Shown here in pieces: positions 7,481-64,000 of a DNA stretch of 64,000 bases. A model generated the notes under the pieces. It made no database searches and was not told the DNA's origin. It saw nothing but the letters and a program-made list of their open reading frames with translations. Location: positions 19,743 to 83,742 of the forward strand of contig JAFTYI010000006.1 of the NCBI GenBank assembly GCA_017464815.1. Reading direction: 5' to 3'. How positions within the stretch are numbered: position 1 is the first letter of the stretch; each line of letters starts with the position of its first letter. Position numbers and translations under genes: made by a program. The DNA comes from Bacteroidaceae bacterium (GTDB lineage Bacteria > Bacteroidota > Bacteroidia > Bacteroidales > Bacteroidaceae).

Positions 7481-7546
7481 GGCAAGCTTAGCCTTGGGTT
7501 AAGGCAACCTTAACCTTGGGATAAGGCAGGCTTAGCCTTGGGATAA
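7481..7546. repeat. Tandem array, 3 x 22 bp (AAGGC-N7-GCCTT word)
   Basis: Three consecutive 22-base units at 7481-7502, 7503-7524 and 7525-7546 share GGCAASCTTARCCTTGGGWTAA-like sequence with few differences. Each junction contains a small palindrome such as AAGGC...GCCTT, so the array could form serial small hairpins. Confidence 0.9.
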
Positions 7547-7551
7547 GGTTC

Positions 7552-7617
7552 CCTCAATCGGCCACTGATGTCTCTTCTATCGGCCACTGATGTCTCCTCA
7601 ATCAGTCACTGATGTCT
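7552..7617. repeat. Tandem array, 3 x 22 bp (CACTGATGTCT word)
   Basis: Units at 7552-7573, 7574-7595 and 7596-7617 all end in CACTGATGTCT and are exactly 22 bases long. The sequence is unrelated to the array 5 bases to the left, although the period and copy number are the same. Confidence 0.9.
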
Positions 7618-7633
7618 CCCCCTATCCCCTGCA

Positions 7634-9574
7634 TCACCTTTCGAGAGGGGTTATCAAGATGCCATCGGTGCGGCAACTTTCGCCTCCCTCGGGTAAGAGT
7701 TCGATGCGCAACTGGTCGCCGGTGTTCAGTTCAAAGGTGCCTAACGGGTGATTAACCAACGCATCGGTGTTGACGTCAGCGCTTATGGTGCTCTTCAACA
7801 CATCGTTGATGTAAAGGCGGTAACGCCCCTTTCCATCGCTCTCGTCGAACATGCGCACGGACACCTCGGCCTTCAATCGAGCACCACGCCACACGGCATT
7901 CAGTGTGCCCACTCCGGCCTCGCCGCTCACCACGCGGTCACCCGAGGCCTTGAACCAAGCCCCATCCTGCACCTCGACGAACGAACGGAGGCCACGTGTC
8001 CATCCCTCCGCCTCGTTCATGCCTTCGCAAGCCTCGGCTATCGGAGCCGAAAAGCTCCATTGAGGCGCATCCGCCATCGCCTTTCCTTTCACGATGGGAG
8101 CCACCGACCACGTGTAGTTGCGCCCATACGGCAAGGTGGCGGGTTGCCACGTGGTGGTGCGTGCGTCCACCTCTGCCGTGCGAGTCACCTCCCCTTCGGC
8201 ATCCGTCAAGGTCAATCGGTATCCCTCGGCGCCAAAGGCCGGTCGCCAGCTGAGCACCAAGGGTTGCGCCTCCGTCTCCCCCTTCATTGCTTGTAGCGAA
8301 ACATGAGTTTCCCCATCGGCAGGGAAAGGCTTGCAAGCATAGCGGGAAGCAGTGGTGAATTGCCACACGGCCCCCCGTAGCAACGTGTCGGCCAACTGGG
8401 TATCTACGCGCCAATAGTAGGTAGTGGCGGGCTTCAATGCATTCGTTTTCAATCCATTATCAACCACGCGCTTCGGTCTCTTCTTATCCAACTTGTCAGG
8501 CGCAGTGGCCAATCGCACGTGATAAGCCACGGCTTCAGGCGCCTTGCTCCACCTGAGCACTCCATCGGTGTGAGGATAATCGATGCGCCCATGATTGGGC
8601 AAGGGGATGAGGTCGTACTCCAAGCCCGCCACTGGGCCTGCCGAAGCCGTCACCACCCTCTGCACATCGGTCGAAGCGTCCAACGTCATGGTGTAGTCAT
8701 AGAGGGCCTTTGCATCAAACACCTCGCCCGTCCCTTCCATGTTTCCTGAGCATTCGACGAACAGATTGTCCACCGACGAAGCGTGTCCATAGAAAGGCGA
8801 AGCAGGGTCGGTGCTGTACATCTGTTTCAACGGAGTCTTGCATCGCTGGAAGCTATTTCCCTCCACCACCACACGGGCACCACAGAAGAATCCCACACAA
8901 TAAGACCTCACATCTTCGTAATGATTATTCCACACATGTCCGCATCCATATCCGATGCGGGGATTGCGCTGGGTGGTGCGGAGAAAGGCATTGTGGTGAT
9001 ACGACACATTCAGCCTCCCCACATCCTCGGCATGTTGGGTGCCCGAGTTGCACACCGACACCTTATTGTGGTCATGCAGGCAATTCCACGAGGCCGTCAT
9101 CAAGTCGGAGCCAATGGTGAAGTCGAGCAATCCGTCATCGGAATTTCCCAAGTCGCAATGGTCCACCCACACGTGGTGCGACGAGCGGAAGGCAATGGCA
9201 TCCTGATGAGCATTGCGGATGGTGAAGCCACGGATAACCACGTTGCTCACCCCATTTCCTCTGAATCCGATGCCATCCAACACGGCACGTCCGTTCAAGC
9301 CAATAATCGTCTTGTCCGAAGCCACGTCAATGTCGCGCTCATCATCCAAGTCAATCGTCCCCTCAAACAGAATGGTGTAAGGTCCCTCGGCCGCACAATA
9401 ACGGCGCAAGCCGGCCTCATCGGTCACACGCACCACCTCACCCAATCCGCCACCAATCGTGCCTTCAACTCCATAACCGGGCATTGCGGCAAAGCCCACA
9501 AGACCGTGCTCCCCCCGTTGTGCCTGCACACTCAGGACACCCCCCAACAAAAGTATTGGTAAAATGTGTTTCAT
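7634..9574 (-). CDS. Secreted pectate lyase (PL1-type) with Fn3-like and C-terminal beta-sandwich modules
   Basis: Starting at the ATG at 9574 gives a signal peptide (MKHILPILLLGGVLSVQAQ). Residues about 20-310 are a parallel beta-helix pectate lyase: DKTIIGLNG, NVVIRGFTIRN, the Ca-binding/catalytic region DHCDLGNSDDGLLDFTIGSD, SWNCLHDHNK and the RNPRIGYG segment. Two Fn3-like repeats follow (about 335-420 and 425-510: TTYYWRVDTQLADTLLRGAVWQFTT; NYTWSVAPIVKGKAMADAPQWSF), then a C-terminal carbohydrate-binding-like sandwich. It would cleave polygalacturonate by beta-elimination outside the inner membrane. It is a lone gene with a strong promoter, not embedded in a visible SusC/SusD locus. Substrate specificity is inferred from the fold only. 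Confidence 0.87.
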   Translation of the reverse strand: MKHILPILLLGGVLSVQAQRGEHGLVGFAAMPGYGVEGTIGGGLGEVVRVTDEAGLRRYCAAEGPYTILFEGTIDLDDERDIDVASDKTIIGLNGRAVLDGIGFRGNGVSNVVIRGFTIRNAHQDAIAFRSSHHVWVDHCDLGNSDDGLLDFTIGSDLMTASWNCLHDHNKVSVCNSGTQHAEDVGRLNVSYHHNAFLRTTQRNPRIGYGCGHVWNNHYEDVRSYCVGFFCGARVVVEGNSFQRCKTPLKQMYSTDPASPFYGHASSVDNLFVECSGNMEGTGEVFDAKALYDYTMTLDASTDVQRVVTASAGPVAGLEYDLIPLPNHGRIDYPHTDGVLRWSKAPEAVAYHVRLATAPDKLDKKRPKRVVDNGLKTNALKPATTYYWRVDTQLADTLLRGAVWQFTTASRYACKPFPADGETHVSLQAMKGETEAQPLVLSWRPAFGAEGYRLTLTDAEGEVTRTAEVDARTTTWQPATLPYGRNYTWSVAPIVKGKAMADAPQWSFSAPIAEACEGMNEAEGWTRGLRSFVEVQDGAWFKASGDRVVSGEAGVGTLNAVWRGARLKAEVSVRMFDESDGKGRYRLYINDVLKSTISADVNTDALVNHPLGTFELNTGDQLRIELLPEGGESCRTDGILITPLER

Positions 9575-9595
9575 ATTCCTCTTTCTAATTTGCGA

Positions 9596-9627
9596 CAAAA
9601 GTAATAAAGCCTATTTGCATAACCAAA
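9596..9627 (-). promoter_or_regulatory. Putative pectate lyase promoter
   Basis: The minus strand reads TTTG (9624-9627), 20 bases, TACTTTTG (9596-9603), a full match to the Bacteroidetes promoter pattern, 22 bases before the ATG. Confidence 0.8.
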
Positions 9628-9670
9628 CCAACAAGAAAGTTTTTTATCTCACTTTCGTCATTTCTGCAAC

Positions 9671-9705
9671 AAAAGGCCATGCACTCTACCGTGCACAGCC
9701 TTTTT
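9671..9705. terminator. Hairpin terminator downstream of carB
   Basis: AAAAGGC-CA-TGCAC and GTGCA-CA-GCCTTTT arms flank a short loop, with T runs on both strands. It lies 76 bases past the carB stop and upstream of the pectate lyase promoter. Confidence 0.75.
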
Positions 9706-9780
9706 GCATTTATGTGAGAAGGTGGGTGAGCCCTATCCCTACACTTATCCACCAATAACTGGCAACTACCAGCCAACAAT

Positions 9781-19605: not shown

Positions 19606-19697
19606 AAGGTTTAGGGTTGAAGGTTTAGGGATTATGGTTTAGGGTTTAGGGTTTAGGGACTAACTCCCTACACCCTACACCTTCAACCCTACACCTT
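19606..19697. repeat. TTTAGGG-repeat inverted pair
   Basis: The left part contains five TTTAGGG words at 19610, 19624, 19638, 19645 and 19652 (spacings 14, 14, 7, 7). The arm 19606-19622 is an inverted repeat of 19681-19697 (16 of 17 matches), so it can form a hairpin between rdgB and yitT. The right arm overlaps the stop codon of yitT (19689-19691). Confidence 0.85.
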
Positions 19698-20642
19698 CTT
19701 CTTGCTTTTAACTTTTATCTGGTCAAATCCTTCGCCATACACGCCCACCACGTTGCTTTGCGAGATGAACGCACCCGGGTCAATGTCCTTCACCAGGCGG
19801 AAAATGTGGATGGCTTCGCTCTTCTTGGCCAACACGCACAGCACCTTCACTGGTTGTTTGCTATAGAATCCTGTGCCGTCCAACACCGTCACTCCGCGGT
19901 TCACTTCCGTCATCACAGCTTCGCCTATCTCCTCATACTTCTTGCTGAAGATGAGGAATTGCACACTCTGTCGGGCACTGTTCACGATGTAGTCGATGGC
20001 CACGCTGATGATGATGAGTGTGACGAAGCCGAACACCACGCGGCGCCAATCCTCGAACACAAAGTAGCACGAGGAGATGATGACGATGTCGCACACCATT
20101 ATCATGCGCCCGAAGGAGACGGTTTTGTACTTGTTTACGATGGCGGCAATGATGTCGGTTCCTCCTGTGCTTCCACCCACGATGAACACCACCGCGATGC
20201 CCACTCCGCAAAAGATGGCACCTATGACACAAGCCATGAAGTCTTGTCCGGGACCTATTATCTGCAGGAACTCGCCCGTCTCGGGATTCTTCATCATCTG
20301 TTGGAAGATGTCGAGGAAGAAGGTCAGCACAGTCACCGAATAGATGGTCTTCAGGCAGAACTTCAATCCCAACACGTAGAGGGCTACGGCCAGGAAGGCG
20401 GCATTGATGATGAAGTAGGAGATTTGCATCTCGATGCCCGTGGCGTAGTAGATGATGGCCGAGATACCCGTCACGCCTCCTGTAGTTATCTGATAGGGCA
20501 GCAAGAAAAGACACCATCCCAGGGCGTAGGCCATCAGTCCCAAGGTGATGGTGATGTAGTCTTTAGTCTCGCGCCAAAAGAGACCCACCCCCCTACCCCT
20601 CCCAGGGGAAGGGAGTGGATTGCCTTGTTTATCTGTTTTCAT
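19689..20642 (-). CDS. YitT family membrane protein
   Basis: This protein of 317 residues has five to six hydrophobic segments between about residues 25 and 210 (DYITITLGLMAYALGWCLFL, FIINAAFLAVALYVLG, GAIFCGVGIAVVFIVGGSTGGTDIIA, MIMVCDIVIISSCYFVF), followed by the cytoplasmic DUF2179 domain (RGVTVLDGTGFYSKQPVKVLCVLAKK). The substrate of YitT proteins is not established. The first about 20 residues (GNPLPSPGRGRGVGLF) are simply the translation of a dispersed G/C-rich repeat (20583-20621), fused in frame ahead of the conserved WRETKDYI start region. It is 44 bases downstream of leuS and likely co-transcribed with it. Confidence 0.88.
   Translation of the reverse strand: MKTDKQGNPLPSPGRGRGVGLFWRETKDYITITLGLMAYALGWCLFLLPYQITTGGVTGISAIIYYATGIEMQISYFIINAAFLAVALYVLGLKFCLKTIYSVTVLTFFLDIFQQMMKNPETGEFLQIIGPGQDFMACVIGAIFCGVGIAVVFIVGGSTGGTDIIAAIVNKYKTVSFGRMIMVCDIVIISSCYFVFEDWRRVVFGFVTLIIISVAIDYIVNSARQSVQFLIFSKKYEEIGEAVMTEVNRGVTVLDGTGFYSKQPVKVLCVLAKKSEAIHIFRLVKDIDPGAFISQSNVVGVYGEGFDQIKVKSKKKV
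20583..20621. repeat. Dispersed C/G-rich palindromic repeat inside the yitT 5' end
   Basis: On the minus strand it reads ATCCACTCCCTTCCCCTGGG and continues GAGGGG...GGGTC, the same element as the copy at 60511-60554. Here it forms codons about 8-20 of yitT. Confidence 0.85.
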
Positions 20643-23844: not shown

Positions 23845-25923
23845 TTACAGCATTACCTTTGCTGATTTTCCTCCTTCAACTTTGATGTAGATACCATGTT
23901 TGGGATTTTCAACAGGACGTCCAGTCAAATCAAAGTATCTGGCTTTTTCTGCATCCACTCGAATTTCGTCGATTCTGTCCGCTGTAACATTAATGGTTTT
24001 CTCCACCACTTTAGCCACATCGAACTCTTTATCACCTGACTGGGATGCCTCAACCCGAATCGTGCCTGCAGCATTTACCGTGAGCTTGTTTCCTTGAATG
24101 GTTGCATCGCCTTCCAACACTTTATAAACAACATTCAACCCTGACGATGCTGTCGCATTCAGTTCTACAACATCACCTTCGACAATATTTGCAAAAGTCT
24201 GATTCCAAGTGATAGTCTGACTTTTCTTGGATACAGTCACCTTGCAACTGGCGGTTTTACCTCCACAGGTTGCCGTTATTGTTGCAGTTCCTGCAGAAAC
24301 AGGGGTGACTTTTCCATTGGCATCCACGGTGGCGATGCTCTTGTCTGATGAAGTCCATGTAACGCTCTTGTCAGTAGCATTCGTGGGAGATACCGTGGCA
24401 GTCAATTGCCCACTGCCCCCCATCGTAAGCGACATGGATGTTTTGTTCAACGTCACGGAAGTCACGGCCACGGGAAGTACGGTCACCTTACAACTGGCTG
24501 TTGCCTCACCACAGGTTGCCGTTATCGTGGCAGTTCCTGCAGCCTTAGCAACAATGCGTCCACTGGCATTCACCGCCACTACGCTGGCATCCGACGAAGT
24601 CCATTTCACACTTTTGTCAGTCGTGTTCGCAGGGGAAACGGTGGCTGTCAACTTGTCGCTGCTACCCACGATGAGTTCCAATGTTGATTTGTCCAATGTT
24701 ACGGAAGAGGCAGCAATGGTAATAACAGTCACCTCGCAATTAGCCGTCACCTCACCACAAGAAACCGTTATCGTGGCACTTCCAACAGACACGGCTGTAA
24801 CGTTTCCATTGGTATCAACGGTGGCGATGCTGTTATCCGACGATGCCCATGTCACACTCTTATCAGTGGTATTCTCAGGCAAAACAGTGGCACTCAGTTG
24901 CTCACTGCCACCAATAGCGAGTTCCAATGTTGACTTGTTCAGTGTCACAGATGAAGCAGGTACAGTATAGACCGTCACCTCACAACTGGTTGTCACATCC
25001 CCGCTTTTTGCCATTATCGTGGCTGTTCCTGCCGAAATGGCCTTTACATTTCCATTGGCGTCCACTGTCGCCACTTTTTTGTCCGACGATGTCCATGTCA
25101 CACTCTTGTCGGTGGCATTCTCCGGCAAAACGGTGGCGCTCAGTTGTTCACTGCCACCCACAGCAAGCTCTAAGGATGTTTTGTTCAACGTCACAGAAGA
25201 CACCGCAATAGGAAGCACCTTCACTTCGCAACCGGCCGTCACATCCCCACTTTTTGCCGTTATCGTAGCCGTTCCTAATGAAACAGCGGTAACATTTCCA
25301 TTTGTATCTACAGTAGCTACACTATTATTAGACGAAGTCCATGTTACGCTCTTATCTGTGGCATTCTCCGGCAAAACAGTGGCATTCAATTTACTACTTT
25401 CGCCCACATGAAGTTCCAATGTAGAATTATCCAGAACCACACTTTGCACATACACAGGTTCCACAGTCAGAACAATCTCCGAATCGTCCATATAATAAGC
25501 CTTCGCACCAGAGGCTGTAGCCACTGCATTTTGCAACTTGATGCTGTAATCCCCAAGGGGAACATCCACACTTAATGGAACATTCAGCACCACGCCGCTA
25601 TTCCCAGTAAAAGCCGTGTTAGGATTGGAATAGACCAACACTCTCATGGCACCACCTTCCTGTTCCTTTGTCACTAATGTATGCACTCCCTCTTGGTGAC
25701 GGAGCATTGTCATAGCGCCTGAAATCTTCACACCTTCGGGAAGGGTTATGTCGCATTGGAAGCCCACAGCCTCACCCGCATTCTTTAGTTCTATAGCAAG
25801 TGTGGCCGCTTCCCCTTCTGTTACCGATATGTCAGCTGCAGTTACCTCATAGTCGGCAGCTTTGGTAACAACGCCTATTAGTGCCAGAGACACTAACAGG
25901 CTGATTTTTCTCAATAATTTCAT
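23845..25923 (-). CDS. Secreted protein with cohesin-like module, five Big_2 Ig-like repeats and sorting tail
   Basis: This protein of 692 residues has a signal peptide (LLRKISLLVSLALIGVVTKAA). Residues about 25-150 are a cohesin-like module (FQCDITLPEGVKI...MLRHQEGVHT...MRVLVYSNPNTAF). Residues about 155-560 are five roughly 80-residue Big_2 repeats, each VTLNKTSLEL...LSATVLPENATDKSVTWTSS...TATITAKSG. Residues about 565-650 form a module beginning ITWNQTF...ASSGLNV, then a short tail with DLTGRPVENPKHGIYIKVEGG, resembling a type IX sorting signal. Its start lies one base after the stop of the 4500-residue BspA-like gene, so the two are co-transcribed and probably translationally coupled. Both the cohesin-like and the ITW modules recur in that neighbour. 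The surface/adhesion role is inferred. Confidence 0.82.
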   Translation of the reverse strand: MKLLRKISLLVSLALIGVVTKAADYEVTAADISVTEGEAATLAIELKNAGEAVGFQCDITLPEGVKISGAMTMLRHQEGVHTLVTKEQEGGAMRVLVYSNPNTAFTGNSGVVLNVPLSVDVPLGDYSIKLQNAVATASGAKAYYMDDSEIVLTVEPVYVQSVVLDNSTLELHVGESSKLNATVLPENATDKSVTWTSSNNSVATVDTNGNVTAVSLGTATITAKSGDVTAGCEVKVLPIAVSSVTLNKTSLELAVGGSEQLSATVLPENATDKSVTWTSSDKKVATVDANGNVKAISAGTATIMAKSGDVTTSCEVTVYTVPASSVTLNKSTLELAIGGSEQLSATVLPENTTDKSVTWASSDNSIATVDTNGNVTAVSVGSATITVSCGEVTANCEVTVITIAASSVTLDKSTLELIVGSSDKLTATVSPANTTDKSVKWTSSDASVVAVNASGRIVAKAAGTATITATCGEATASCKVTVLPVAVTSVTLNKTSMSLTMGGSGQLTATVSPTNATDKSVTWTSSDKSIATVDANGKVTPVSAGTATITATCGGKTASCKVTVSKKSQTITWNQTFANIVEGDVVELNATASSGLNVVYKVLEGDATIQGNKLTVNAAGTIRVEASQSGDKEFDVAKVVEKTINVTADRIDEIRVDAEKARYFDLTGRPVENPKHGIYIKVEGGKSAKVML

Positions 25924-25924
25924 C

Positions 25925-28900
25925 TTATTTTATAATTACTTTATTCTTACCAATGATATATACACCCTGCTTCAAAGCAAACTTGTTATAGCCGGCTTTG
26001 ACATCGAGCATGTGGACGATACCGTCAACAGATGTAACGGGCAACTGATAATCCACTGGTGAATAGATTGAAATCTCTTCTCCCTGAGTCTTTATCTTCA
26101 TGCTTGAAATCACATCTTCCATGCTCTCCATGCCTGTAACATAGCCGTATTCGAACGGACGATATATAATCGTTCCATTTTCACGGAATGAGTATCCGGC
26201 ATTCTCTATTTCGATGTCGCCATTTCTCGATACACTTTCCAGCAACAAGGTCACTGCCTGGTTGTTGGCCATCGGTGTGTTGTCAGTAGAGTACAGCAGT
26301 ATTCTGATGCATCCCTCTTCCACGAAGCGGGCTACGGCCACTTGTGTACCTGCCGCCTCACTGTGGCGGAGGGTCACTATCGGATTACCTGCATCATCCA
26401 ATTTGGGCAAGCAGTCGTCTGACAGACGGATGTCGCACTGGAAGGTCAGGTATTCACCCATGTTGCTTGAGAGTATCACGTTCAATCCGTTGGCCGACAT
26501 TTCACCACGCAGAACTTCGCCTGTTGAGCGGGTCATCAGTTCGGCCTCGTCAATGGTAGCCGGAGCAGTCAGTACGATGTCTACCACACCCGACACGTCG
26601 GCCACGTTCACACGTTGGTCTTTGTTCACGTCGGCAGCTCTGAACAGGAACTCCTGCGGGTCGTTACCGATGGCATAGTCAATGGTTGTCGCAAGGTCGG
26701 CCGAGTTGATTTCTCTGTTACCGTTGGCATCGCCATATTCGTATGCTTGGATATACTTCACATCCGTAGAGATAGAGGCGTATTGGTTATCACCCTTCTG
26801 CTGGGCAATAAGGGCAATGGCTCCCGGTTTCACAATCGCCAGTGTGTTGTCACTCAAGTTGGCAAACTGGCTTGACTCGTTATTTCCGAACGCAAAGTTT
26901 ACCGACAGACCACTGGAAGCCGCAGCGTTCAGTGTAATCTTATCGCCTACCATTACGGGTTGTTCAAACTCTTGTTCCCAAGTAATCACCTGTGCGGTCT
27001 TGGTCAACTCCGAGAAGTTGACTACCAATTCAGCACTTTGCTTGTCAGCCGTTGTCACAAACACACCGTCCACAATCTGTGAAGTGATGTCTTCGCCGTC
27101 TAACGTGGCTGACACAATCTCCTCACCCTCTTCGGGAGTGATGTAGAAGCGTACGGTTCCATCTTTCGGCACATAGAGTGAAGAACCATCTTCTACGGTT
27201 GTCACCGTGCTTTCTGTTTCGTTGGTTGCAGCACGGGTGGCTCTTGTTACCGGGGCAGGAGTATTTCCCTCTTCGGCAGTCTCACCGCTGGCGAAGCTGA
27301 TAGAGCCGTTACCCTTCTTCTGCACGACAATGTCGTTACGCATCTGGATGAAGCGTCCCCAATAAGTTGCCAATGCATACTCCTTTTTAGATTCCGTAGG
27401 AATGGAAACGATACATCTGTCGGTGTTCACTCCACGGAACGTGTTGTCCGCTACTGTGGGAGGTGTAAGCGCCTTCACCGTGAGGTTCATCAACTGACGG
27501 CAGTTGTAGAACACGCCATCTTCCAACGAAGTGATGGTTGAGGGCAATGTGGCAAAGCGCAAATTGGCACAGTCGGCAAAGGTATATTCGCGCAAGGTCT
27601 TCACACTTTCCGGCACACTCACACTTCTGATGGGGATGGCACGGAATGCTTCGCGCTCAATCTCTTCCACCTTTTGTGAGAGTCGCAGATCTTTCAGTGA
27701 AGTACATCCCTGGAAGGCCGATGCATTGATGCGGGTAATGTTGTCGGGGATATACACCACGTTGAGCTGCGGACAGTTGGCAAATACGGATGATTCAAGA
27801 GTCGTCATCTTACCAGAGATGAACACCGTAGAGATGTTGGTACCACTGAATGCACGTTGTCCCACTGTGGTCACCGATTCAGGGATGGTCAAGTGGCCGG
27901 TAATGCCGCTTTGTCCCTCAAAGGCCCTCTCGCCGATGCTGGTCAATGTCTCCGAGAAGTACAGTTCCTGTTCCAGATTACATCCTTGGAATGCCTCGCT
28001 ACCGATTGATTCCACCTTGTTTTGGAAGGAAATCTCTTTCAGTGGCGTGTTGGCAAAGGCGCGGTTACCGATTTTCTGCAAGGCATAGTTGAAGTCCAAT
28101 GTCTCGATGTTGGTACCAGCAAAGGCTCCGTCGCCAATCTCTGTCAAGTCAGTGGGCAACACCAGTTCTTCAATGCCGTGGCATCCTTGGAAGGCATAGT
28201 TGCCCACCACCTTTGTTGTACTGGGAAGTTGCAGCGACAGCAACTGCTGCTTGCCGTCAAAGGCATTGTTGGGCACCTTGTTCACTTTGGCATTCGACAA
28301 ATCGAGGTAAAGTAGCGACTTCATATTTAAATTCATTTGTTCGAAGTCATCATCGTTGATTTCACCACGTACTGTCAGGCCTACCACTTTGGCAGGGGCC
28401 ATATTATGTTTGTCAATAATTTCCCAACTCAGCTCACCGGGTGTACTTACCAGTACATCCACCTTGTTGCTTTGGTTGGTCAGTTGCATACCTTCCCAAC
28501 CTTTGGCAGTAGAATATTTGTTCTGGTCACTGGGATTCAAGAGTACCACCACTCCATAGGCTCCATTGTCGAACAGGCATTTGGGGAAGGGACTCCAGTC
28601 TTCGTCATTTTCTTTTGTAATCGTCGGAGGAGTAGTCGCATTGCTTACCACAATCAAGGCATTGGGGAACTCACCTTCTATCTTGGTAAGATTGCTTCCT
28701 AAGGTCAAATTGGTAATCTTTTCACTACGTCCTTTCGGAAGAATCTTTAATCCGTTACCTGTGTTCAATGAGGTAATGCAAGAATTGTAGAGTAAAGGCA
28801 ATATAGGTGCTTCTGTGAATTTTTCAGGAATCTCCAATGCAGTCAAAGGTTGCTTGCCTATATACAGTTCTTTAAAGAGATAGTCGTTTCCGTTATTGGA

Positions 28901-31900
28901 ATTGATTTCTACTTTAAATAGCCAGTCAAGACTTGGTATATAGGTTAAAGTATGGCGTCCATTACCTAACCCGAGTCCTACGTATCCAAAAGCTGCTTCA
29001 CCAATGGACTGAATAGAATTCCCTAATGTGACAGATTCCAATCCATAGCAATCGTAGAAAGCTTCGCTTGGAATAGTGGTTACAGAATTGGGAATCTCAA
29101 TAGATTCCAAAGCCCTGCAATACATGAAAGCTCTTTCACCAATAGTCTGAAGAGAATTACTCAAGGTGACAGATGTCAGATTGTTACAATTATAAAATGC
29201 TTCTCGTGAAAGAGTTGTTACAGAGTTGGGCATTTCGATGGAAGTCAATGAAGGATTATCAGCAAAAGCTGCGAAACCTATGGTTTGGAGGGAATCTCCT
29301 AATGTAACGGATGATAAATTGTCACAAACGCGGAACGCTTGATCTGAAATAACCTTCACTGAATTGGGAATCTCAACAGAGGTCAATGCCTTACAGTTAT
29401 AGAAAGCACCAGCTCCAATAATATCTACTGAATTACCCAAAGAAAGAGTTGCTAATTTCTCACAACCGTTAAAAGCGTTGTCGCCAATCTTCTTCACTGA
29501 ATTGGGAATCTCAACAGAGGTCAATGCCTTACAGTTATAGAAAGCACCAGCTCCAATAGTATCTACTGAATTACCCAAAGAAAGAGTTGCTAATTTCTCA
29601 CAACCGTTAAAAGCGTTGTCGCCAATAGTTTCTACAGAATTAGGGATTACCAATGATTTTATTCCACGTCCATTAAAGATTCCACCAGGTATCTTTTTTA
29701 CCGTATTAGGTACTTCCAAATCAACAATTTCTTCATTGTTCACACACAAGTTTGTAGCTGTTTCGAAGGGGCTTGACCGATACCCATCAAATTTGAATTC
29801 GTTGAAAAGAACCTCTAACTTTGCCACGTTAATTGTTAATGAATCGCATCCATTGAAGGCACAATAACCAAAATTACTTATAGAATCACCAAGCGTGATA
29901 TACGATAAGTTTTTGCATCCACTAAATGTTTCTGTTCCGATACTTTTCACCGAATTAGGGATAGTTACAGAAGTAATACCTTCCGCGCCAAAGAAAGCAT
30001 ATGGAGAGATTTGAGTTACACCCTCGGGAATCACTAAATCCGTCACTTCCTCACCATTCAAGTAAAGGTGCTTGGCCTTTGAAAGCGGATTGGAATCTCC
30101 TCTTTCGAATCCACTATTACATAGGGTTGCTACATCGGTTACATGTACAGATGTTAAAGAAGGACAATTCTCAAATACTCCCCACTGGATATTTTTCACA
30201 GGGCCACCCATTGTCACTGTGGTTAAAGCCGCACAGTCATAGAACGCCCTATAACCAATGTTCTCTACTGAGTTCCCAATAGACACAGTTGCTAATTTCG
30301 GCCAACCATAGAAAATATCCGCTCCAATCGTTCTTACCGAATTAGGAATGGTTATTGAGGTTACATTCTTACCAAAGTTATAGAAGAATCCGTTATGGAT
30401 TTGTGTAACTCCTTCAGGAATCACCAAATCTGTCACTTCTTTTCCGTTTACATGCAATTTGGAGGCGATACTGAAAGGGTTGCCAGCATGACCATATTGA
30501 ATATTAAACATAGTCCCTAGTTTGTTTAGATTCACTGTTTGCAAGCTGTCACAACCATTGAATGCAAATTCGCCAATCGTTCTTACTGAATCGCCCAATG
30601 TGATATGCGACAGATTGGTACAGAACTCAAAAACTCTGTCCTCAATAGTGACAACAGAATTAGGAATGACAATTGATTTTAAATTCGTACATTTGTGGAA
30701 AGATCCTCCACCAATTGTGCGAAGAGAATCTCCCAACGTTACAGATTTCAAATTCGTACATCCCAAAAATACATTACGTGGAAAAAATTTAATCGAATTG
30801 GGAACCTCAATAGCAGTCAAAGAAACACAATTCTGAAAAATTCCTTCACCGATGGTATCTACCGAATTTTCCCATGATACAGAAGCTAACTTCGACCAAT
30901 CATTAAAAGCATAATTATTTATCTTCTTTACTGATTTAGGGATAATTATTGAAGTTATATTCTTTCCGAATTTGTAGAACATTCCGCTCTTAATTTCTGA
31001 GATACTTTCAGGAATCACCAAATCAGTCACTTCTTTGCCATTCAGATGCAATTTGGAGGCTATGCTGAATGGATTACTGTTGCTATGACCGCATTGAATA
31101 TTAAACATGGTTTCAAGGCTGTTTACATTTACGACTTGGAAACTATCACAGCGATTGAATGCATAAGAATCAATAGATTTTACAGAATCTCCCAATGAAA
31201 TATAAGATAGATTAGTACAATCTTCGAATGCTCCATATCCAATAGAGACAACGGAGTTGGGGAAAACCACAGATTTCAAACTTTTACATTCTCTGAAAGC
31301 ATACTGTCCTATTGTCCGGAGAGAATCTCCCAAAACAACTGATGCAAGATTGGTACAATTGCGGAACACTTCATTCGGGAATGCTTTTACCGAATTGGGT
31401 ATTTTGATAGCAGTCAAAGCTGTACAATTTTGGAATGCGCTTGTTCCAATAGTTTCCAAAGAACTGCTTAATGTAACAGATTCCAAGTTTACTAACCCCA
31501 TGAATGCACGGTCGCCAATCTTTACTACTGAATTGGGAAGAACGATAGACTTGATGTTCTTATACCCCTTGAAGAATCCTTCGTTGATTTCAGTGATGCC
31601 TTCGGGAATTTTCAGGCCTGTCACCTCTTCACCATTAAAGTAGAGATGCTGGGCAATGGTCAGCGGGTTGGCACTTTGGTTTTCAAAATAAATAGCATAC
31701 CATGCATCTAAGTTGGTTACGTCCACTCGCTTCAAGCTGTCACAACCAGCGAAGGCATTTGTTTCAATGCTGTCAATAGATTCACCAAAGGTAACGGAAG
31801 TCAAAGCTGTACAGCTTGCAAATGCAGAATTTCCGATTTTCTCTACGGAATCGCCTAATTTCAGTGAAGTGATCTTGCTACCTTCAAAGAGGTGATCTTT

Positions 31901-34900
31901 AATCTCCTTGACGGTATTGGGCACTACCAATTCGGTAATCTCTTTACCATCTGAATAAAAATGCTTTGCTTTTGTAAGAGGGTTAGAATGATAGTCTCCA
32001 AATTCAATGTTGAACCAGTCTTCTAATTTAGCAATATGCACATCCTCTAACGAATCACATTGATAGAATGCATGATATCCAACAGTTGTTAAAGAATCAC
32101 CAAAAGTAACAGAACGCAAATTCTTACATCCACCAAAGGCACGTTCACTCAGATATTTCAATGAATTTGGAAGTACAACCTTGGTCAATGATTTACTGCC
32201 TTCGAACATATGCCAACCATAAATTCCTTGAACTGAATTAGCAAATACCAAAGAGGTGATGAAATCGTATCCGGAAAGGAGGTTTCCTCTCACTTCTGTG
32301 GCGCCATAAGGCTGAACATATTCAGTCACAAGCTTATCATCGCAATACAAACCTTTTGTTATTTTCGCAGGATTAGACGAATCTGAACCGAAATTAATCG
32401 CAAAATATGCCGCAGCATCAGTCACATCCACTCGGGACAGCTTTTCACATCCATTAAATACATTATGCTCAATTGTTTTAATCTGATTTCCAAGTGACAC
32501 TGATTCCAGATTGGTACATCCATCAAACGCATGGTCACCGATAAATGTCAATGGCTCGGGAAACTCAATAGATGTCAAAGAGGTACAACCCCTGAATGCT
32601 TCTCTACCAATACTCTCTAATGAACTGCTTAATGTAACAGACTCCAAGTTTGCTAATCCCTTGAATGCGCGGTCGCCAATCTTTACTACTGAATTAGGAA
32701 GAACAATAGACTTGATGTTTTCATACCCCTTGAAGAATCCTTCGTTGATTTCAGTGATACCTTCAGGAATCTTCAAACCTGTTACCTCTTCACCATTAAA
32801 GTAGAGATGCTGAGCAATGGTCAGCGGATTGGCACTTTGATTTTCAAAGTTAATGGCATACCATGTATCCAAGTTGGTGACATCTACTCGTTTCAGACTA
32901 TCGCAACCATTGAAGGCATAACTGCCGACAGAAGAGATGGCGTCACCGAAGGTAACGGATGACAATTTGGTACAACCTTCAAAGGCCGCTTTCTCAATAG
33001 CTACCACCGTATTGGGAATAACAACGGATTCCAATCCCTTACAGTAGCGGAATGCACCTGCAGCAATGGTGTCCACTGAAGCACCCCAATTGATAGATGT
33101 CAATGCTGAACAGCCTTCAAATGCATTCTTTCCCGTTCTTTCCAATGTCACAGATTCCAACTTGGGCCAGTTCTGGAAGGCATAATCACCGACTTTAACT
33201 GAATTCGGGATAGTTACAGAAGTTACATTGTTTCCGAAATTATATAAGAAGCCTTTGTTTATTTCAGTAAGATATTCAGGTATAACTAAATCGGTAACTT
33301 CTTCACCACTCAGATGTAAATTAGAAGCGATGCTGAACGGATTACTGCCACTGCCGTTGCATGTGAGATTGAACATGGTCTCAAGACTATGTATATTCAC
33401 AGTTTTCAGGCTGTCACAAAACCAAAAAGCACGGTCTCCTATGGTTTTTACAGAATCACCTAATGTAACGTACGACAATGCATCGCAATCATGAAATACA
33501 TATTCTCCTATACTTTTTACAGAAGTTGGAATAAACACAGAAGTAATGCTTGACGCACCACTGAATGCATAATTGGATATATGAGTTACATCATCGGGAA
33601 TAATCAACTCTGTAACCTCCTCTCCATTCAAGTAGAGGTGTTTTGCTATTGATAAAGGATTGGAATTACCACCGCCAGAATTGTGGGATGCAAATTCAAT
33701 GTTACACAAAGTACTGATATTGGGAACGTTCACTTTTGTCAATTTGTCACATCCACTAAATGGATACAACCCGACTGTTTTTATAGAATCTCCCAATGAT
33801 ATGGATTCCAATTCAGACCAATTCTGAAAAGCTCCACCATTTATACTTTTTACTGAATTGGGGATAGTTACCGAAGTCACAATATTCCCAAAATTGTAAA
33901 AAAATCCTTGATTAATTTCTGTTACTCCTTCAGGAATTTCCAATTCTGTGATTTCTTTGCCGTTCAGATGCAACTTAGAGGCTTTGCTGAATGGGTTAGC
34001 ATTGCTTCCACCGCATTGAATGTTGAACATGGTCAAAAGAGTGTTCACATTTACTGTTTGTAAACTATCACAGCCATTAAACGAACGAGAGCCAATAGAT
34101 TTTACAGAATCTCCTAGTGTAATGTATGACAAATTGGTACAGAATTCAAAGACTCCATCCTCAAGAGTGACGACAGAATTAGGAATGACAATGGATTTTA
34201 AATTTTTACATTCTTTGAACGAACCTCCAGCAATTGTACGAAGAGAATCGCTCAATGTTACAGATTGCAAATTAGTACATCCAAAGAATACATTACGTGA
34301 GAGCGCTTTTACCGAATTAGGAATTTCAACAGCGGTCAAAGAGGTACAATACTGAAATGCTTCCGTTCCAATTGTTTCCAAAGAACTGCTTAATGTCACT
34401 GATTCCAAATTTGCCAATCCCTTGAATGCGCGGTCACCAATCTTTACTACCGAATTGGGAAGAACGATTGACTTGATGTTCTCATACCCCTTGAAGAAAC
34501 CTTCGTTGATTTCAGTGATGCCCTCGGGGATAGTCAAACCCGTCACCTCTTCACCATTGTAATAAAGATGCTGAGCTATGGTCAGCGGGTTGGCACTTTG
34601 GTTCTCGAAGTTGATGGCATACCATGCATCCAAGTTGGTGACATCCACTCGTTTCAAACTGTCACAACCATTGAAGGCATAGCTGCCGACAGAGGCGATG
34701 GCGTCACCAAATGTAACGGATGCCAATTTGGTACAACCTTCGAATGCTGCCTTCTCAATAGCTACCACCGTATTGGGGATAACAACGGATTCCAATCCCT
34801 TACAGTAGCGGAACGCTCCCGCAGCAATGGTATCGACCGAAGCTCCCAAGGTGATAGAGGTCAATGCGGAACAACCTTCGAACGCGTTCTTACCCGTTCG

Positions 34901-39755: not shown

Positions 39756-39954
39756 CGTTTTAATTGTGAATTATTGATTATGAAATCTTATTTATTTTAC
39801 AGAAAATGTTGCAGAACATGTTTTTACACCTTTTAGTAATAAATTTCGCGCTTCTATTTCATCCCTATTTCGTCAAAATGAAATGCCGCGTGAGGGGTGC
39901 GTGATTGCATATATATACAATGTAAAGATGAGGGGATGAGGTAAGGCACAAAGT

Positions 39955-40065
39955 GGTCAGCCCGTCTCCTCTCAAGTGGTCAGCGGCTAAGGTGTCCGAC
40001 GGTTAGCCCGTGTCCTCTCGAGAGGTTAGCGGCTGACCTCTCGACACCTTAGCGGCTAAAGGGTG
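39955..40065. repeat. Tandem array, about 5 x 23 bp (GGTYAGC word)
   Basis: GGTCAGC at 39955 and 39978, GGTTAGC at 40001 and 40024, and CCTTAGC at 40047 are spaced exactly 23 bases apart. Units contain paired words such as GGTTAGC...GGCTGACC, so neighbouring units can form hairpins. Confidence 0.9.
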
Positions 40066-40386
40066 GGAAGAAGGCGGTTTTTGTTTGATTTTCCCGACCG
40101 AAAAATGTATAAATATACAGTGGGCGCATATTTATGCAAAACTGACCGCACGAGAATCGCGTATATGGGCGTGAATTTTCTTTTGAGCGAAAAATGGGAA
40201 GAATTTCAATCAGAATGCAAACAGCTAGGTTTCAGATTGTTAACAACACTCTGTTAACCTTTGAAGGGGGCAGGCTTATCCCATGGATGAAGTGAGAGGG
40301 AAGAGGATGTATTCTTAAAAGCTGACATATTGTTTTCTCGCATATTTACAGGAGCTCTGCATTATCGGCATTTTTAGGGAGGAGGA

Positions 40387-41277
40387 TTAATCAGGGTGAG
40401 GGGGATTTTGAGGAATCGGAGGAGTCGGAGGAGTCGAATTATTCTGAGGATTCTGAGGGCTCGGAGTAATCTGAGGATTCTGAGTATTCTGAAGACTCGG
40501 AGTGTGCTGAAGACTCGGAGAGTTCGGAAGACTCTGAGAGCTCTGAGGATTCGGAGTGGGGTGGGTTATCTGGGACTTTTGGGCGTTCCTGTAATTTATC
40601 CTTGCTTGGAACATGCGTTCTTTGATGCCACCTTCGGTGACAAAACGCTGCTGCATGGTGATGAGCAGTTTGTGTAGCATATAAATGGCTTGGTGAATGA
40701 GGGTGATGCAGAGGTTGGCAATCTCCTCATCGTTCATGCGGCGTATGTTTTTCGCATAGGTGTTGCTGATTTGTCCGCTGCGGGCATACAGCCTCATTCT
40801 TTCGTAGCGTGGGTGCAAGGGACCCCATTGTTCAAGGTTTCGTACACGCAGATAGTCTTCGTAATCGTCGAGCAGTTCTTCAAGGCTTGCTTTGGCCACA
40901 TTGGTGAGTTTGATTTCTGTTTCGCTGGATGTGGCCGCAGCTTGGTTGCCTTCGGCGATGTTTTGCTTGCCGCTACGTGCGGCTTGCACCATCTGATCAA
41001 TGGTGCGGTCGCCTTTGGAGAGATACTGGTGGGTAAAATTGTAGGTGATGTCGTAGATTATCTCTGTCACTTGATAGACACGCAGGTTGCGGTAATGGCC
41101 GTGTTGGGGGAGGAAGGTGTGGGGCGCTTGAGGGGTCGGAGAAATCGGAGGGTTCGGAGAATTCGGAGTAATCGGAGAACTCTGAAGACTCTGAAGACTC
41201 TGAGGACTCTGAGGACTCTGAAAACTCTGAGAGCTCTCATTAATCTGAGCGAGCTGGGTGGGTTGATCGTTTTTCAT
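40387..41277 (-). CDS. Four-helix-bundle protein (suffix-domain type) with repeat-encoded tails at both ends
   Basis: Residues about 60-215 form the four-helix-bundle core related to 23S rRNA intervening-sequence proteins: YRNLRVYQVTEIIYDITYNFT, GDRTIDQMVQAARSGKQNIAEG, KLTNVAKASLEELLDDYEDYL. The suffix segment continues to about 225. Biochemical function is not known. The ends are unusual: residues about 14-45 (SSQSFQSPQSPQSLQSLQ) and about 235-296 (SSQSLPNSPSLQHTPSLQNT) are Ser/Gln/Pro/Asn-rich low complexity, encoded by strict 9-base DNA repeats in the same orientation at both gene ends. The gene is last in a minus-strand series with the DUF3108 gene 35 bases upstream. Confidence 0.8.
   Translation of the reverse strand: MKNDQPTQLAQINESSQSFQSPQSPQSLQSLQSSPITPNSPNPPISPTPQAPHTFLPQHGHYRNLRVYQVTEIIYDITYNFTHQYLSKGDRTIDQMVQAARSGKQNIAEGNQAAATSSETEIKLTNVAKASLEELLDDYEDYLRVRNLEQWGPLHPRYERMRLYARSGQISNTYAKNIRRMNDEEIANLCITLIHQAIYMLHKLLITMQQRFVTEGGIKERMFQARINYRNAQKSQITHPTPNPQSSQSLPNSPSLQHTPSLQNTQNPQITPSPQNPQNNSTPPTPPIPQNPPHPD
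40416..40555 (-). repeat. 9-bp array, 16 periods, coding the C-terminus
   Basis: TCGGA/TCTGA words (plus strand) occur every 9 bases without a slip from 40416 to 40551, consensus near TCTGAGGAN. They form the last third of the four-helix-bundle frame; three codons per unit keep the frame open. Confidence 0.92.
41136..41239 (-). repeat. 9-bp array, 12 periods, coding the N-terminus
   Basis: The same TCGGA/TCTGA word recurs every 9 bases from 41136 to 41235, in the same orientation as the array at the other gene end. It encodes the QSP/QSL-rich N-terminal extension. Confidence 0.92.
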
Positions 41278-44141: not shown

Positions 44142-44228
44142 CTAGGGGGGGCTAGAGATTCTAGATATTCTAGATTGCCTAGATTTTCTAGAGATTCTAG
44201 ACTGTCTAGACTAATCTAGATTATCTAG
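44142..44228. repeat. 9-bp array, 10 CTAG periods
   Basis: CTAG occurs at 44142, 44152, 44161, 44170, 44179, 44188, 44197, 44206, 44216 and 44225: spacing 9 with two slips to 10. The typical unit is TCTAGATTN. Each TCTAGA is itself a palindrome. CTAG is generally rare in bacterial DNA, so ten copies in 87 bases stand out. It lies between the GH3-like gene and the lipoprotein gene. Confidence 0.93.
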
Positions 44229-44259
44229 GAGATTCAGGGGGCTGACTTATTTTGAGTTA

Positions 44260-49014: not shown

Positions 49015-49033
49015 ATTCATGCATGGCAATCGC

Positions 49034-49073
49034 ACCCCTTGCAAGGGGTACCATCATACCTCTTGCAAGGGGT
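49034..49073. repeat. Pair of CCCCTTGCAAGGGG-type palindromes, 24 bp apart
   Basis: ACCCCTTGCAAGGGGT at 49034-49049 is a perfect palindrome. ACCTCTTGCAAGGGGT at 49058-49073 is the second, imperfect copy. They lie between two convergent genes (acyl-CoA ligase, wbqC). Confidence 0.85.
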
Positions 49074-49198
49074 ATCGAGATAGGGCATGCATGAGGTGCA
49101 AAGGTGCCCATGTATAGAGCCTAACAGGTTGATAATAGGCGCATTACAAAAATTCAAAGAAAACATCTTGCAGGAGTAGCAAGGATATTGAAAATCTT

Positions 49199-52329: not shown

Positions 52330-52355
52330 GTCTTTTCTCTATATTATCTTAGTTA

Positions 52356-52440
52356 CTGCCAAGCCTGTGGCAGTGTCCTGCCTCTATGGTGGCAGTACTC
52401 TGCCACAGTAATGGCAGACGTCTGCCAACGCCGTTGGCAG
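52356..52440. repeat. Tandem array, 4 x 22 bp (CTGCC-N7-TGGCAG)
   Basis: CTGCC occurs at 52356, 52378, 52400 and 52422 (spacing exactly 22), and TGGCAG at 52368, 52390, 52412 and 52435. Each unit is a small hairpin CTGCC-loop-GGCAG. The array lies in the dapB-lepB gap, just upstream of lepB. Confidence 0.93.
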
Positions 52441-52489
52441 TAGCTGATTGTACGCATCTTACTGATGAAAGAAGCGAATGAAGGGGCGA

Positions 52490-57959: not shown

Positions 57960-57979
57960 AGGGAGAAAAATCCTTAACT

Positions 57980-59541: not shown

Positions 59542-59556
59542 ATCGGCAATTTTTTG

Positions 59557-59564
59557 CAAATTTA
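59557..59564 (-). promoter_or_regulatory. Putative -7 element of the two-component operon
   Basis: Minus-strand TAAATTTG matches TAnnTTTG, 16 bases before the regulator ATG. The operator at 59585-59601 sits where it could affect this promoter. Confidence 0.5.
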
Positions 59565-59584
59565 CATGCTTTCCCCCAAACGAG

Positions 59585-59669
59585 TGTCTAGAAATTAGAC
59601 AATTTTGGGGCTCAAAATACGATTTAACAGAATTTAGCACTCTTCTTCTTGCACGATTCAATAACTTTG
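59585..59669 (+). promoter_or_regulatory. Operator and promoter of the ABC transporter operon
   Basis: TGTCTAGAAATTAGACA (59585-59601) is a perfect 6-base inverted repeat with a 5-base spacer. AAAATACG follows at 59614, TTTAACA soon after, and the -7 box TAACTTTG lies at 59662-59669 with no good -33 element, as expected of an activated promoter. All these elements recur with identical spacing at 63726-63810. Confidence 0.75.
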
Positions 59670-59722
59670 TGAGGCAAAAAGCTAACTACGCATGATTTTA
59701 ACCCATAAAAAGACAAGAAAAT

Positions 59723-60397: not shown

Positions 60398-60415
60398 AGA
60401 GCCCCACCCAAAACC

Positions 60416-60554
60416 ATCAGCCCCCTCCCCCTTACCCTCCCCAAGGGGAGGGAGTGAATACTACAAATCCTATAGAAACTATAAACCAAAAAACATTAGC
60501 AACAGACTCTATCCACTCCCCTCCCCTGGGAGGGGCAAGGGGGAGGGTCCCCTC
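60416..60554. repeat. Inverted pair of C/G-rich dispersed repeats
   Basis: A C-rich copy (60416-60460, CCCTCCCCAAGGGGAGGG core) and a copy at 60511-60554 (CTCCCCTGGGAGGGG core) face each other across about 50 A/T-rich bases, in the gap between the ATPase and the permease genes. The second copy is the same element that forms the yitT N-terminus at 20583-20621. Confidence 0.85.
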
Positions 60555-60565
60555 TTCTCTTCATT

Positions 60566-62980: not shown

Positions 62981-62995
62981 GGCGAAGGGCGGGGA

Positions 62996-63643
62996 TTACT
63001 CCACAAACTTCACTTTGCCCATATCGCGTGGCTTGGCGGCCGGTGCTTCATCGGCATAGCCGAGGCCCACGCAGAGGCAAAGCTCGTAGCCTTCGCTAAA
63101 GCCCAAACGCTCGAGGATGGGGGCGCAAGCAGGATTGTCGTTAATCATGCGCACGGGGCTGCCCAGGCAGATGGAACCCACGCCGAGCGACCAGGCAGAG
63201 AGCATCATATTCTCGGCCATCAAGCCACAATCGTAGGCCGAGAAGTCATAGCCCTTGTCGCGGGCAATGAACACCATCACCGGAGCACCGCGGAAACATC
63301 CGGCCGCGTTCTCCATCTTAGGATAAGCCGCGTTGAGGGCACTCCGAATCTCCTCCATCACCTGAGGAGTGTCCACCACGCGCACCTCCCACGACTGCTT
63401 GTTCTGCCCGTTGGGGGCATTGATGCCACACAGCATAATCTGGTCGAGCACCTCGCGGCTCACCGCTTCGCTCTTGTACTTACGGATGCTGCGGCGAGCC
63501 ATGATGTTTTCAATCACCGCATTCTTTCCCTCCTCCACAGCAGGGTCTGCTGTTGCCTGATTGTTTGCACTCTGGTTACCTTCTCCACACGATGCCATTG
63601 CCATCAGGCACAAGCATCCCACAAGCATTTTCTTCAGTTTCAT
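62996..63643 (-). CDS. Nitroreductase family lipoprotein
   Basis: This protein of 215 residues starts with a lipoprotein signal (MKLKKMLVGCLCLMAMASC; lipid on Cys19), then a short linker and the nitroreductase fold: MARRSIRKYKSEAVSREVLDQIM (FMN phosphate site), GINAPNGQNKQSWEVRVV, and LMAENMMLSAWSLGVGSICLGSP. The family reduces nitro compounds or quinones with FMN and NAD(P)H, which are normally cytoplasmic; an exported lipoprotein form is unusual in concept, and electron supply is unclear. It is convergent with the ABC permease with only 15 bases between stops. A promoter lies at 63690-63719. Confidence 0.88.
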   Translation of the reverse strand: MKLKKMLVGCLCLMAMASCGEGNQSANNQATADPAVEEGKNAVIENIMARRSIRKYKSEAVSREVLDQIMLCGINAPNGQNKQSWEVRVVDTPQVMEEIRSALNAAYPKMENAAGCFRGAPVMVFIARDKGYDFSAYDCGLMAENMMLSAWSLGVGSICLGSPVRMINDNPACAPILERLGFSEGYELCLCVGLGYADEAPAAKPRDMGKVKFVE

Positions 63644-63689
63644 AACAGTTCTTTGTTTTTTTAGAAATTTGTTTTATCAAAATACGGTG

Positions 63690-63719
63690 CAAATATAGCA
63701 TTTTCTCCTCTTCCCCAAA
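63690..63719 (-). promoter_or_regulatory. Putative nitroreductase promoter
   Basis: Minus-strand TTTG (63716-63719), 18 bases, TATATTTG (63690-63697); spacing is one base below the usual range. Confidence 0.65.
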
Positions 63720-63725
63720 ATCGAG

Positions 63726-63810
63726 TGTCTAAAAATCATACATTTTTCACCTTGAAAATACGTTTTAACAAAGTTTTAACGGTTTATATTTTGTCAATTC
63801 AATAACTTTG
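63726..63810 (+). promoter_or_regulatory. Second copy of the operator-promoter unit
   Basis: TGTCTAAAAATCATACA (63726-63742, imperfect palindrome), AAAATACG at 63755, TTTAACA, and TAACTTTG at 63803-63810 repeat the arrangement at 59585-59669 with the same internal distances (29 bases to AAAATACG, 77 bases to the -7 box). It points to an off-window gene in the same regulon. Confidence 0.75.
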
Positions 63811-63825
63811 TAAGGAGAAACGGAG

Positions 63826-64000
63826 CGTTTCCGCATCTCTTCCAAGAGGAAACGGTGCCCCCTTAAGGGAAAAACAGGTCTCTGCAAGAGAAACTGTGTT
63901 TCCCGTAAAGGGGTACAAAGTTCTCTCTCAAAGGGGAAAAGTTTTTCCCCAGTAAGAAACTTCCGTTTCCTTCAAGAGGAACGCGAGTCCCCCTATGAGG
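63826..64000. repeat. Periodic array of pyrimidine-AAG-purine words, about 21-22 bp
   Basis: About eight small hairpin words (such as CTCTTCCAAGAG, CCCTTAAGGG, TCTCTGCAAGAGA, GGGGAAAAGTTTTTCCCC) recur with spacings of 20-24 bases from about 63850 to the window end. They lie directly downstream of the promoter at 63810, so they would be in the leader of the next gene. Confidence 0.75.

Follow-up and report, generated by a model that had tools for sequence, protein, structure and literature searches.

Short tandem arrays of similar unit length and unlike, often palindromic words in intergenic gaps of Bacteroidaceae

The growth of tandem repeats is usually attributed to slippage, which favors no particular unit, and in eukaryotic satellite DNA monomer length is conserved while the word is free to change and evolves in concert. 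Here, we describe short arrays in a Bacteroidaceae genome (2.63 Mb in 58 contigs, 78.7% complete) that resemble satellite DNA in keeping length and freeing the word, but that comprise about 2-11 units and lie in bacterial intergenic gaps. The arrays were first noticed in a 64,000-nucleotide stretch that we call the window (contig C37:19743-83742, where 83742 is the contig end). In the samples analyzed they combine a preferred unit length across dissimilar words with hairpin potential, turnover of the word within the same gap, and dispersal. We tentatively favor an account, still short of probable in our judgment, in which the arrays are quasi-palindromic minisatellites that evolve in concert under a constraint on unit length, a constraint probably read at the DNA level.

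The closest published relative in kind is BrickBuilt, a miniature inverted-repeat transposable element. It carries a 23-nt minisatellite of one word in Porphyromonas gingivalis and P. gulae, with 18-19 copies per genome, a leader plus a tail in complete copies and at least one of the two in 16 of 19, IS5-like terminal repeats (GAGACCTTTGCA), and sequence variants that its authors note recur at intervals through the units (PMC4596501). The likeness extends to intergenic location, spacerless tandem units and predicted long stem-loops (PMC4596501). Our arrays likewise consist of tandem, intergenic, spacerless units of 20-24 nt, but the mode among 106 arrays is 22 (72 arrays), with 21 in 14 and 23 in only 12. 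The BrickBuilt unit word AGAYCATARTATCCTCTCRTRTG has no site at up to five substitutions in a 464-kb sample of the genome (18% of it: the window plus 20 stretches of 20 kb picked blind to hits), and its terminal repeats gave one and zero matches, at up to two mismatches, around six copies of the compound element described below, whose ends read TGTAAAC.../...TGTAAAG. Thus architecture is shared while word and ends differ: BrickBuilt has a single word, our arrays have many unlike words and TGTAAA-type compound ends, and the word and terminal repeats speak against membership in BrickBuilt. Searches of the open-access literature, judged by their listings, gave no account of such arrays outside P. 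gingivalis.

A second comparison is with repetitive extragenic palindromes (REPs), bacterial interspersed mosaic elements (BIMEs), and the REP doublets forming hairpins (REPINs) that go with REP-associated tyrosine transposases (RAYTs). In one study of REPs, such repeats are extragenic and palindromic, with species-specific words, several types per genome, a downstream or convergent bias and neighboring units often in opposite orientation, and CGTC repeats are reported in Bacteroidetes (PMC3733652). REP tags are not enriched in our 106 consensus units (GTAG in 8 and CGTC in 15, against 15.2 and 14.8 after shuffling), and the Y1 transposase (PF01797) has no match in G008, a same-genus, array-bearing genome that is 99% complete; the genome studied here has one weak match (27.5 bits against a cut-off of 23). 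The tag counts and the lack of a Y1 transposase match in G008 speak against REPIN/RAYT. REPs are not known to repeat contiguously in tandem at 22 bp. T-runs (TTTTT) speak against intrinsic terminators, since they are not enriched near array edges (13 of 212, against 783 of 9313 for random intergenic positions), though some arrays of genus g14 do end in short T-runs. A clustered regularly interspaced short palindromic repeat (CRISPR) array does not fit units that are contiguous, 20-24 bp long and imperfect, no cas gene search having been made. At Rfam gathering scores the window's matches are three tRNAs only, and a known RNA family is rejected on those scores.

Unit length across unlike words

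The period is real and reaches beyond the window. A scan of intergenic sequence for local self-similarity (40-bp window, 70% match, lags 8-60) recovered 48 tandem loci in the 464-kb sample, 15 of them at lag 22, 25 at lags 20-24 and 6 at 41-47; shuffled versions gave no locus in three shuffles and one in a further shuffle. Pooling this sample with 12 same-genus genomes, three more distant family members (G005, G009 and G027) and 80 named Bacteroidaceae loci gave 196 loci, of which lag 22 accounts for 59, lags 20-24 for 90 and lags 41-47 for 18; among the remaining lags, 14 was the most frequent (15 loci), and the lag-22 peak was stable over five threshold settings. The named loci (1.36 Mb) all surround one gene, dapB, and so represent one neighborhood of many species rather than whole genomes. 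In average lag spectra, as the original prediction had called for, the 464-kb sample peaks at 22 (z 9.9), and z at lag 22 is 6.9 in the same-genus genomes and 12.9 in the named loci, against 1.7 in other families of the order, -2.3 in other orders and classes and 0.8 in Escherichia coli, these outgroup samples being smaller than those from the family. Array density (lags 20-24 and 41-47, per 100 kb of intergenic DNA) follows a similar range: 66 in the genome itself, 97 in G058, 25 both in G008 and in the remaining same-genus genomes, 41 across the named loci, 20 in G005 and 15 in G009, with 7, 6 and 5 in other families, orders and classes and 0 in E. coli K-12.

The words carried by these units are largely unlike. 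When 147 arrays with lags of 15-60 were grouped by single linkage (E at most 1e-3, lags of 41-48 being treated as two units), 94 word clusters resulted, of which 71 have 20-24 bp units and 42 exactly 22; the 464-kb sample alone holds 28 clusters, 21 of them with 20-24 bp units. Related genomes add words such as AAACAATATTGTTT and CAAAGTATAATACTTTG in G008, GCTCGTGAGC with CATATG in G058 and CAAAATAAGTTGATTTG in G005. The largest cluster, with 17 arrays, has a modal lag of 16 and falls outside the 20-24 bp class, and three of the eight largest unite arrays of this genome with those of other genomes at 21-22 bp. A fixed length with a free word is hard to explain by slippage, which has no preferred unit, and the 94 clusters make it hard to explain by one dispersed element. 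The placement of the window's words is not always independent: the word at 7481 (W1) recurs in the left part of compound elements with a middle of the 39955 type, in degenerate form in the window's own copy. Neither of the two outcomes that would have refuted the original prediction was seen in the samples: the lag spectrum does have its peak at 22, and with 28 clusters the sampled arrays cannot be recognized as copies of a single element. Several window words nevertheless belong to dispersed families.

Some words and periods in this comparison are worth recording in their own right. One word around CTTCCATAGTCCA (21 bp) is common to this genome and the same-genus G069 (L115:10049-10166, L117:13032-13096 and L304:17857-17920). 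Another of the genome's arrays (L108:2256-2373) has an AGTACT word that groups with arrays found in a different gap of Bacteroides mediterraneensis and Phocaeicola plebeius (L209 and L210:8494-8597). In Prevotella-like metagenome-assembled genomes (MAGs), an 11-bp tandem array, CCCCTTTAACT, with half the usual period, directly follows dapB (L218:10784-10892, L219:10811-10883).

Word turnover and symmetry within single gaps

Comparison of the same gaps in relatives, also proposed with the original prediction, showed that the word changes while period and symmetry stay. By DapB identity the nearest named relatives are Bacteroidaceae MAGs from the ruminant gut (L167-L172, 98-90%). In the dapB-lepB gap (window 52340-52445), TGGCAG/CTGCCA is conserved at 22 bp in L167 (98% DapB identity) and L172 (90%), L171 retains the period but has lost one dyad arm, and L195 and L202 carry repeats of about 10 bp; the array was not seen in the remaining members of the 32 loci compared, including L168-L170. 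In the gap at window 49034, between the same flanks, L170 has three 24-bp units, TACCCCACGCGTGGGGTA, in which the arms are kept while the center has changed from TTGCAA to ACGCGT in step across the units. L167 has no array in this gap, and L180 yielded no usable gap.

A third gap lies 3' of a conserved gene beside dapB that has no Pfam match. We compared it in 30 loci, dropping L333 as a duplicate of the L332 array and finding L352 unusable. Ten arrays, from ten species of genus g14, occupy this gap, each of three units spaced 23,23 or 24,24, and they fall into two unlike word groups, six of a GAGTC type and four of a GTCGAC/CCGACG type; a third word, ACGAGCGCTCGT, is found in L359 and L360 of genus g19. 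Elsewhere the gap holds a single unit (L344), an AT-rich lag-42 array (L353) or a lag-14 repeat (L356), L342 has a lag-21 array 300 bp from the gap position, and no such array was seen in the other 12 loci. Several species that lack the g14-gap array pass directly from the stop codon to a terminator-like hairpin. In the two g14 word groups, complementarity between units is highest for the first and third (92/102 and 71/76), followed by first and second (90/102 and 67/76) and second and third (85/102 and 54/76), and within single units it is 0.72-0.92. The first and third units show compensatory pairs at 6 and 4 positions, whereas units slid by 1-2 bases pair at 0.06-0.47 with at most one compensatory position, except for one slid register of the first and second units that gives 2. 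Because the units were aligned by hand and the species are related, these compensatory counts do not represent independent events.

Folding supports hairpin potential more broadly. Against dinucleotide shuffles, the 106 arrays of period 20-24 have a mean fold z of -3.43, with 53 below -3, compared to -0.53 for arrays of control lags (4 of 32 below -3) and -0.81 for random intergenic 90-mers (8 of 87). Strict dyads (p<0.05) occur in 31 of 106 arrays against 2 of 32 control-lag arrays, and in an earlier subset in 26 of 90 against 0 of 24, the control sets of 24 and 32 arrays being small. The statement that most units carry an inverted repeat must therefore be qualified: half of the arrays fold strongly, but a strict dyad is present in only about 3 in 10. 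In the 25 arrays with perfect 7-bp dyads, mismatch is lower in the arms (0.165) than in the rest of the unit (0.228). Outer stems of at least 7 bp around the arrays are not enriched (4 of 105, 3.1% expected), and those of at least 6 bp number 16 of 105 (10% expected). A whole-array hairpin selected through unit order was also considered and set aside, the effect of permuting units being weak.

These data bear on a mutational ruler, in which replication or recombination, for instance template switching in quasi-palindromes, duplicates about 22 bp per step and leaves functionless arrays. One array (L125) has near-identical units at lag 23 (match 1.0) and a word found at no other locus in the sample, as local amplification predicts, and concerted symmetric change fits quasi-palindrome correction. 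On the other hand, the better-kept dyad arms and the persistence of arrays in the same gap across species argue against functionless products, and we know of no enzyme that sets 22 bp; we regard such a ruler as quite unlikely to be the whole explanation.

Position, strand and the level at which length is read

Genes were called with a crude picker (longest open reading frames, ORFs, of at least 100 aa), so that gap classes are approximate. Among gaps of at least 150 bp, an array is present in 29 of the 103 convergent, 19 of the 124 divergent and 31 of the 254 co-directional ones, and convergent gaps make up 31 of the 85 that bear arrays. Where the gap is co-directional and at least 100 bp long (34 cases), the array lies at a median of 55 bp from the upstream stop, against 132 to the next start, and most arrays of genus g14 stand between the stop codon and a terminator-like hairpin. 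The 24 distinct loci of the W1 and W4 families (leaving out two repeated rows, L003 = L081 and L007 = L083) lack this leaning and comprise 8 divergent, 11 co-directional and 5 convergent gaps, at least L089, L092, L096 and L098 lying inside compound elements. W1 as a purely 3'-end element is rejected on this basis.

The overall preference for convergent gaps is what would be expected if the arrays acted in RNA. They would then be transcribed, commonly as part of 3' untranslated regions, and would form rods of tandem hairpins that protect or label the ends of transcripts, with 22 bp equal to two turns of A-form duplex; such a role has been proposed for REP elements. The frequency in convergent gaps, the proximity to upstream stops, the g14 arrangement, the fold z-scores and a unit mode of 22 rather than 21 all agree with such a role, as does sense-strand folding in g14. 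Yet 43 co-directional arrays show no strand bias (sense strand more stable in 22, antisense in 21, p 0.82), array edges lack the T-run enrichment noted above, and a third of the W1/W4 loci are divergent. GT and AC mismatches are likewise nearly equal (32 and 37), which together with the folding counts gives no general sign of strand-specific selection. On balance, we consider action in RNA unlikely.

An alternative at the DNA level is that each word is an operator for a different sequence-specific dimeric regulator, 22 bp being the packing distance of the dimers. A fixed packing distance is plausible for dimers, and dyad words recur at many loci per genome. Against such regulators stand the 21 word clusters with 20-24 bp units counted in 18% of a single genome and the arrays in convergent gaps, where no promoter is expected; elsewhere in the genus, inspection shows mostly different words, though some words are shared. 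We find arrays of operators very unlikely.

Since the pooled data carry no strand-specific signal, a DNA-level reader spanning two helical turns is our first choice, and the arrays in divergent gaps support this level. In the minisatellite account that we prefer, a constraint would keep unit length near 22 bp (range 20-24) while the word could change freely, a condition that appears common in Bacteroidaceae. Units of one array would be homogenized by concerted evolution, and dyad symmetry would be kept where present, so that words are replaced symmetrically over time. New arrays would arise through local tandem amplification and through copying of arrays or of a 530-580 bp compound element. 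The constraint may be read on double-stranded or cruciform DNA over about two helical turns, and a candidate reader is a dimeric protein of low specificity, involved in DNA binding or recombination, that recognizes dyads presented on one side of the helix.

Several observations weigh against this account. Two turns of B-DNA predict 21 bp, and 22 suits an A-form duplex better. The greater frequency of arrays in convergent than in co-directional gaps is what an RNA role would give, and in genus g14 the sense strand folds better in 8 of 10 arrays, with a mean difference of -2.6 kcal. Many arrays have only weak dyads, and compensatory double changes inside the 25 perfect 7-bp dyad arrays exceed expectation only modestly (13 against 5.9). 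Folding worsens only slightly when unit order is permuted (54 of 93 arrays, p 0.03). The only reader candidate looked for was the Y1 transposase, and no reader protein was identified. The period is also uneven within the family: G005, G009 and G027 pooled have a lag-22 z of 1.9, below that of lag 58, and G027 has no such array in 120 kb (density 0). Finally, lag 22 appears among coding-classed loci (7 of 52 in the named set, 3 of 18 in the genome's sample), which are presumed to be false ORFs.

The original prediction had attributed the common period to a generating mechanism or a shared ligand that reads two helical turns, and this interpretation is partly supported. A broader reading, a Bacteroidaceae-wide, sequence-independent system that makes or maintains arrays by length and symmetry alone, a 22-bp ruler on dyads and a bacterial counterpart of satellite DNA, strikes us as possible but more doubtful than not. 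One unit length over dozens of unlike words in one bacterial family would imply a physical ruler that can be isolated, whether a protein, a polymerase or helix geometry. Such a ruler would also explain some of the DNA between genes in gut bacteria that are very common, and the arrays offer a test case for concerted evolution in bacteria.

Dispersal, the compound element and other features of the window

Several window words are dispersed families, so that copying explains part of the pattern. A query with the 7474 gap gives 43 blast matches in the genome, itself included, that span the array part only; the W1 word stands alone at many loci, and W1-type units also occur in the left part of compound elements. 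The adjoining word, W2, has a second copy at C15:25014, again beside a W1-like array. Four other loci of the genome, on C16, C2, C8 and C56 (the last only weakly, E 0.06), carry the W4 family, and short flanks are common to pairs of W4 loci. Among 31 arrays of the genome, 16 have another locus in the 464-kb sample and 15 do not, though some of these 15 have copies elsewhere in the genome.

The 39955 array (W3) is the exchangeable middle of a compound dispersed element. From its left end, TGTAAAYATTT, this element runs through degenerate W1-type units, a conserved box with two 14-bp palindromes and the 23-bp array to a TATATATA box and a right end of TTATTAC(N8)TGTAAA. The loci scanned in the genome contain 36 frames, and both ends were obtained for 35 of them: 15 measure 529-531 bp, 14 measure 580-584 bp, five differ in length and one (L044) was misanchored. 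For two of the five (L066 and L069), an inner TGTAAA lying 23 bp inside the expected end probably served as the anchor. The frame does not vary, and at least three unlike arrays can occupy its middle (A, and B and C of about 22 bp). The ends are constant and look like direct TGTAAA repeats, with no target-site duplication evident by eye in the flanks. The two palindromes of the conserved box (40106-40137) may be ArgR-like. The exact frame pattern has no match in the genome-contig and viral-contig collections searched, the element has no blast match in 60 other genomes of the family, and the W1/W2 array has none in 59 genomes of the phylum besides this one. These results are not absolute, since the same-genus L290 (G064) has a W1-like array and L169 a related frame with a 22-bp middle resembling type C.

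A purely mobile origin would make the arrays passengers of BrickBuilt-like elements, with the period inherited from one ancestral minisatellite, the word drifted and no length constraint at present. The BrickBuilt precedent (PMC4596501), the fixed length classes of the compound element with its 36 frames, the W1 and W4 families and the short flanks common to pairs of W4 loci fit such an origin. It sits less well with 94 clusters that have no detectable similarity, with 15 of 31 arrays at a single locus in the sample (copies elsewhere in the genome notwithstanding) and with 7474-gap matches confined to the array part, and drift alone should spread unit lengths. We judge this origin unlikely.

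All arrays listed in the original prediction are present in the window (Table 1), with two corrections of make-up: the 49034 array, given as two 24-bp units, has a third, and the 52356 array, given as four 22-bp units, does have four periods but consists of three full TGGCAG-N4-CTGCCA-N6 units and a half-unit at either end. The latter was listed neither by Tandem Repeats Finder (TRF; score 30) nor by the masked lag scan, and the ORF picker apparently hid it under a false ORF. The loose array at the contig end is also borne out, its lag-21/22 match of 0.42 (0.25 expected) being reached in 0 of 500 shuffles.

Table 1. Arrays and compound element in the window (window coordinates)
Feature	Position	Strand	Basis
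W1 array, 3.4 x 22 bp, GGGATAAGGCAAGCTTAGCCTT	7474..7548	+	TRF; fold z -3.36
W2 array, 3.1 x 22 bp, CCTCAATCGGCCACTGATGTCT, adjoining W1	7552..7619	+	TRF; fold z -1.83
Compound dispersed element, type A, 529 bp	39822..40350	-	Frames in the same genome
W3 array, 5 x 23 bp, exchangeable middle of compound element	39955..40065	-	TRF 23 and 46; fold z -3.25
Best kept frame segment, CGATTCTC box and two palindromes	40106..40159	-	37-sequence alignment
Dyad array of three 24-bp units, the third degenerate, core TACCCCTTGCAAGGGGTA, convergent gap	49027..49099	+	49010-49090 fold z -6.14
W4 array between dapB and lepB, four 22-bp periods	52340..52445	-	fold z -6.57
Loose array, lag 21-22, chain of short hairpins up to contig end	63826..64000	+	63870-64000 fold z -3.05

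Other repeats accompany these arrays. The gap at 19608-19698 holds a GGTTTAG heptamer array (7 copies) that faces inverted CCCTACA heptamers and has a third harmonic of 21 bp. A long inverted repeat, AGGAGTG / CACTCCT, lies at 6304-6419, and a like sequence occupies the L168 dapB-lepB gap, where the 22-bp array is missing. Two 9-bp minisatellites (40403-40557 and 41136-41248) fall within ORF 40387-41277, which has a weak 23S_rRNA_IVP match below the cut-off, and another, CTAGAGATT, lies between ORFs at 44152-44235. A minus-strand ORF of 4500 aa (25925-39427) carries 138-bp repeats, and its neighbor, ORF 23845-25923, holds a 246-bp repeat.

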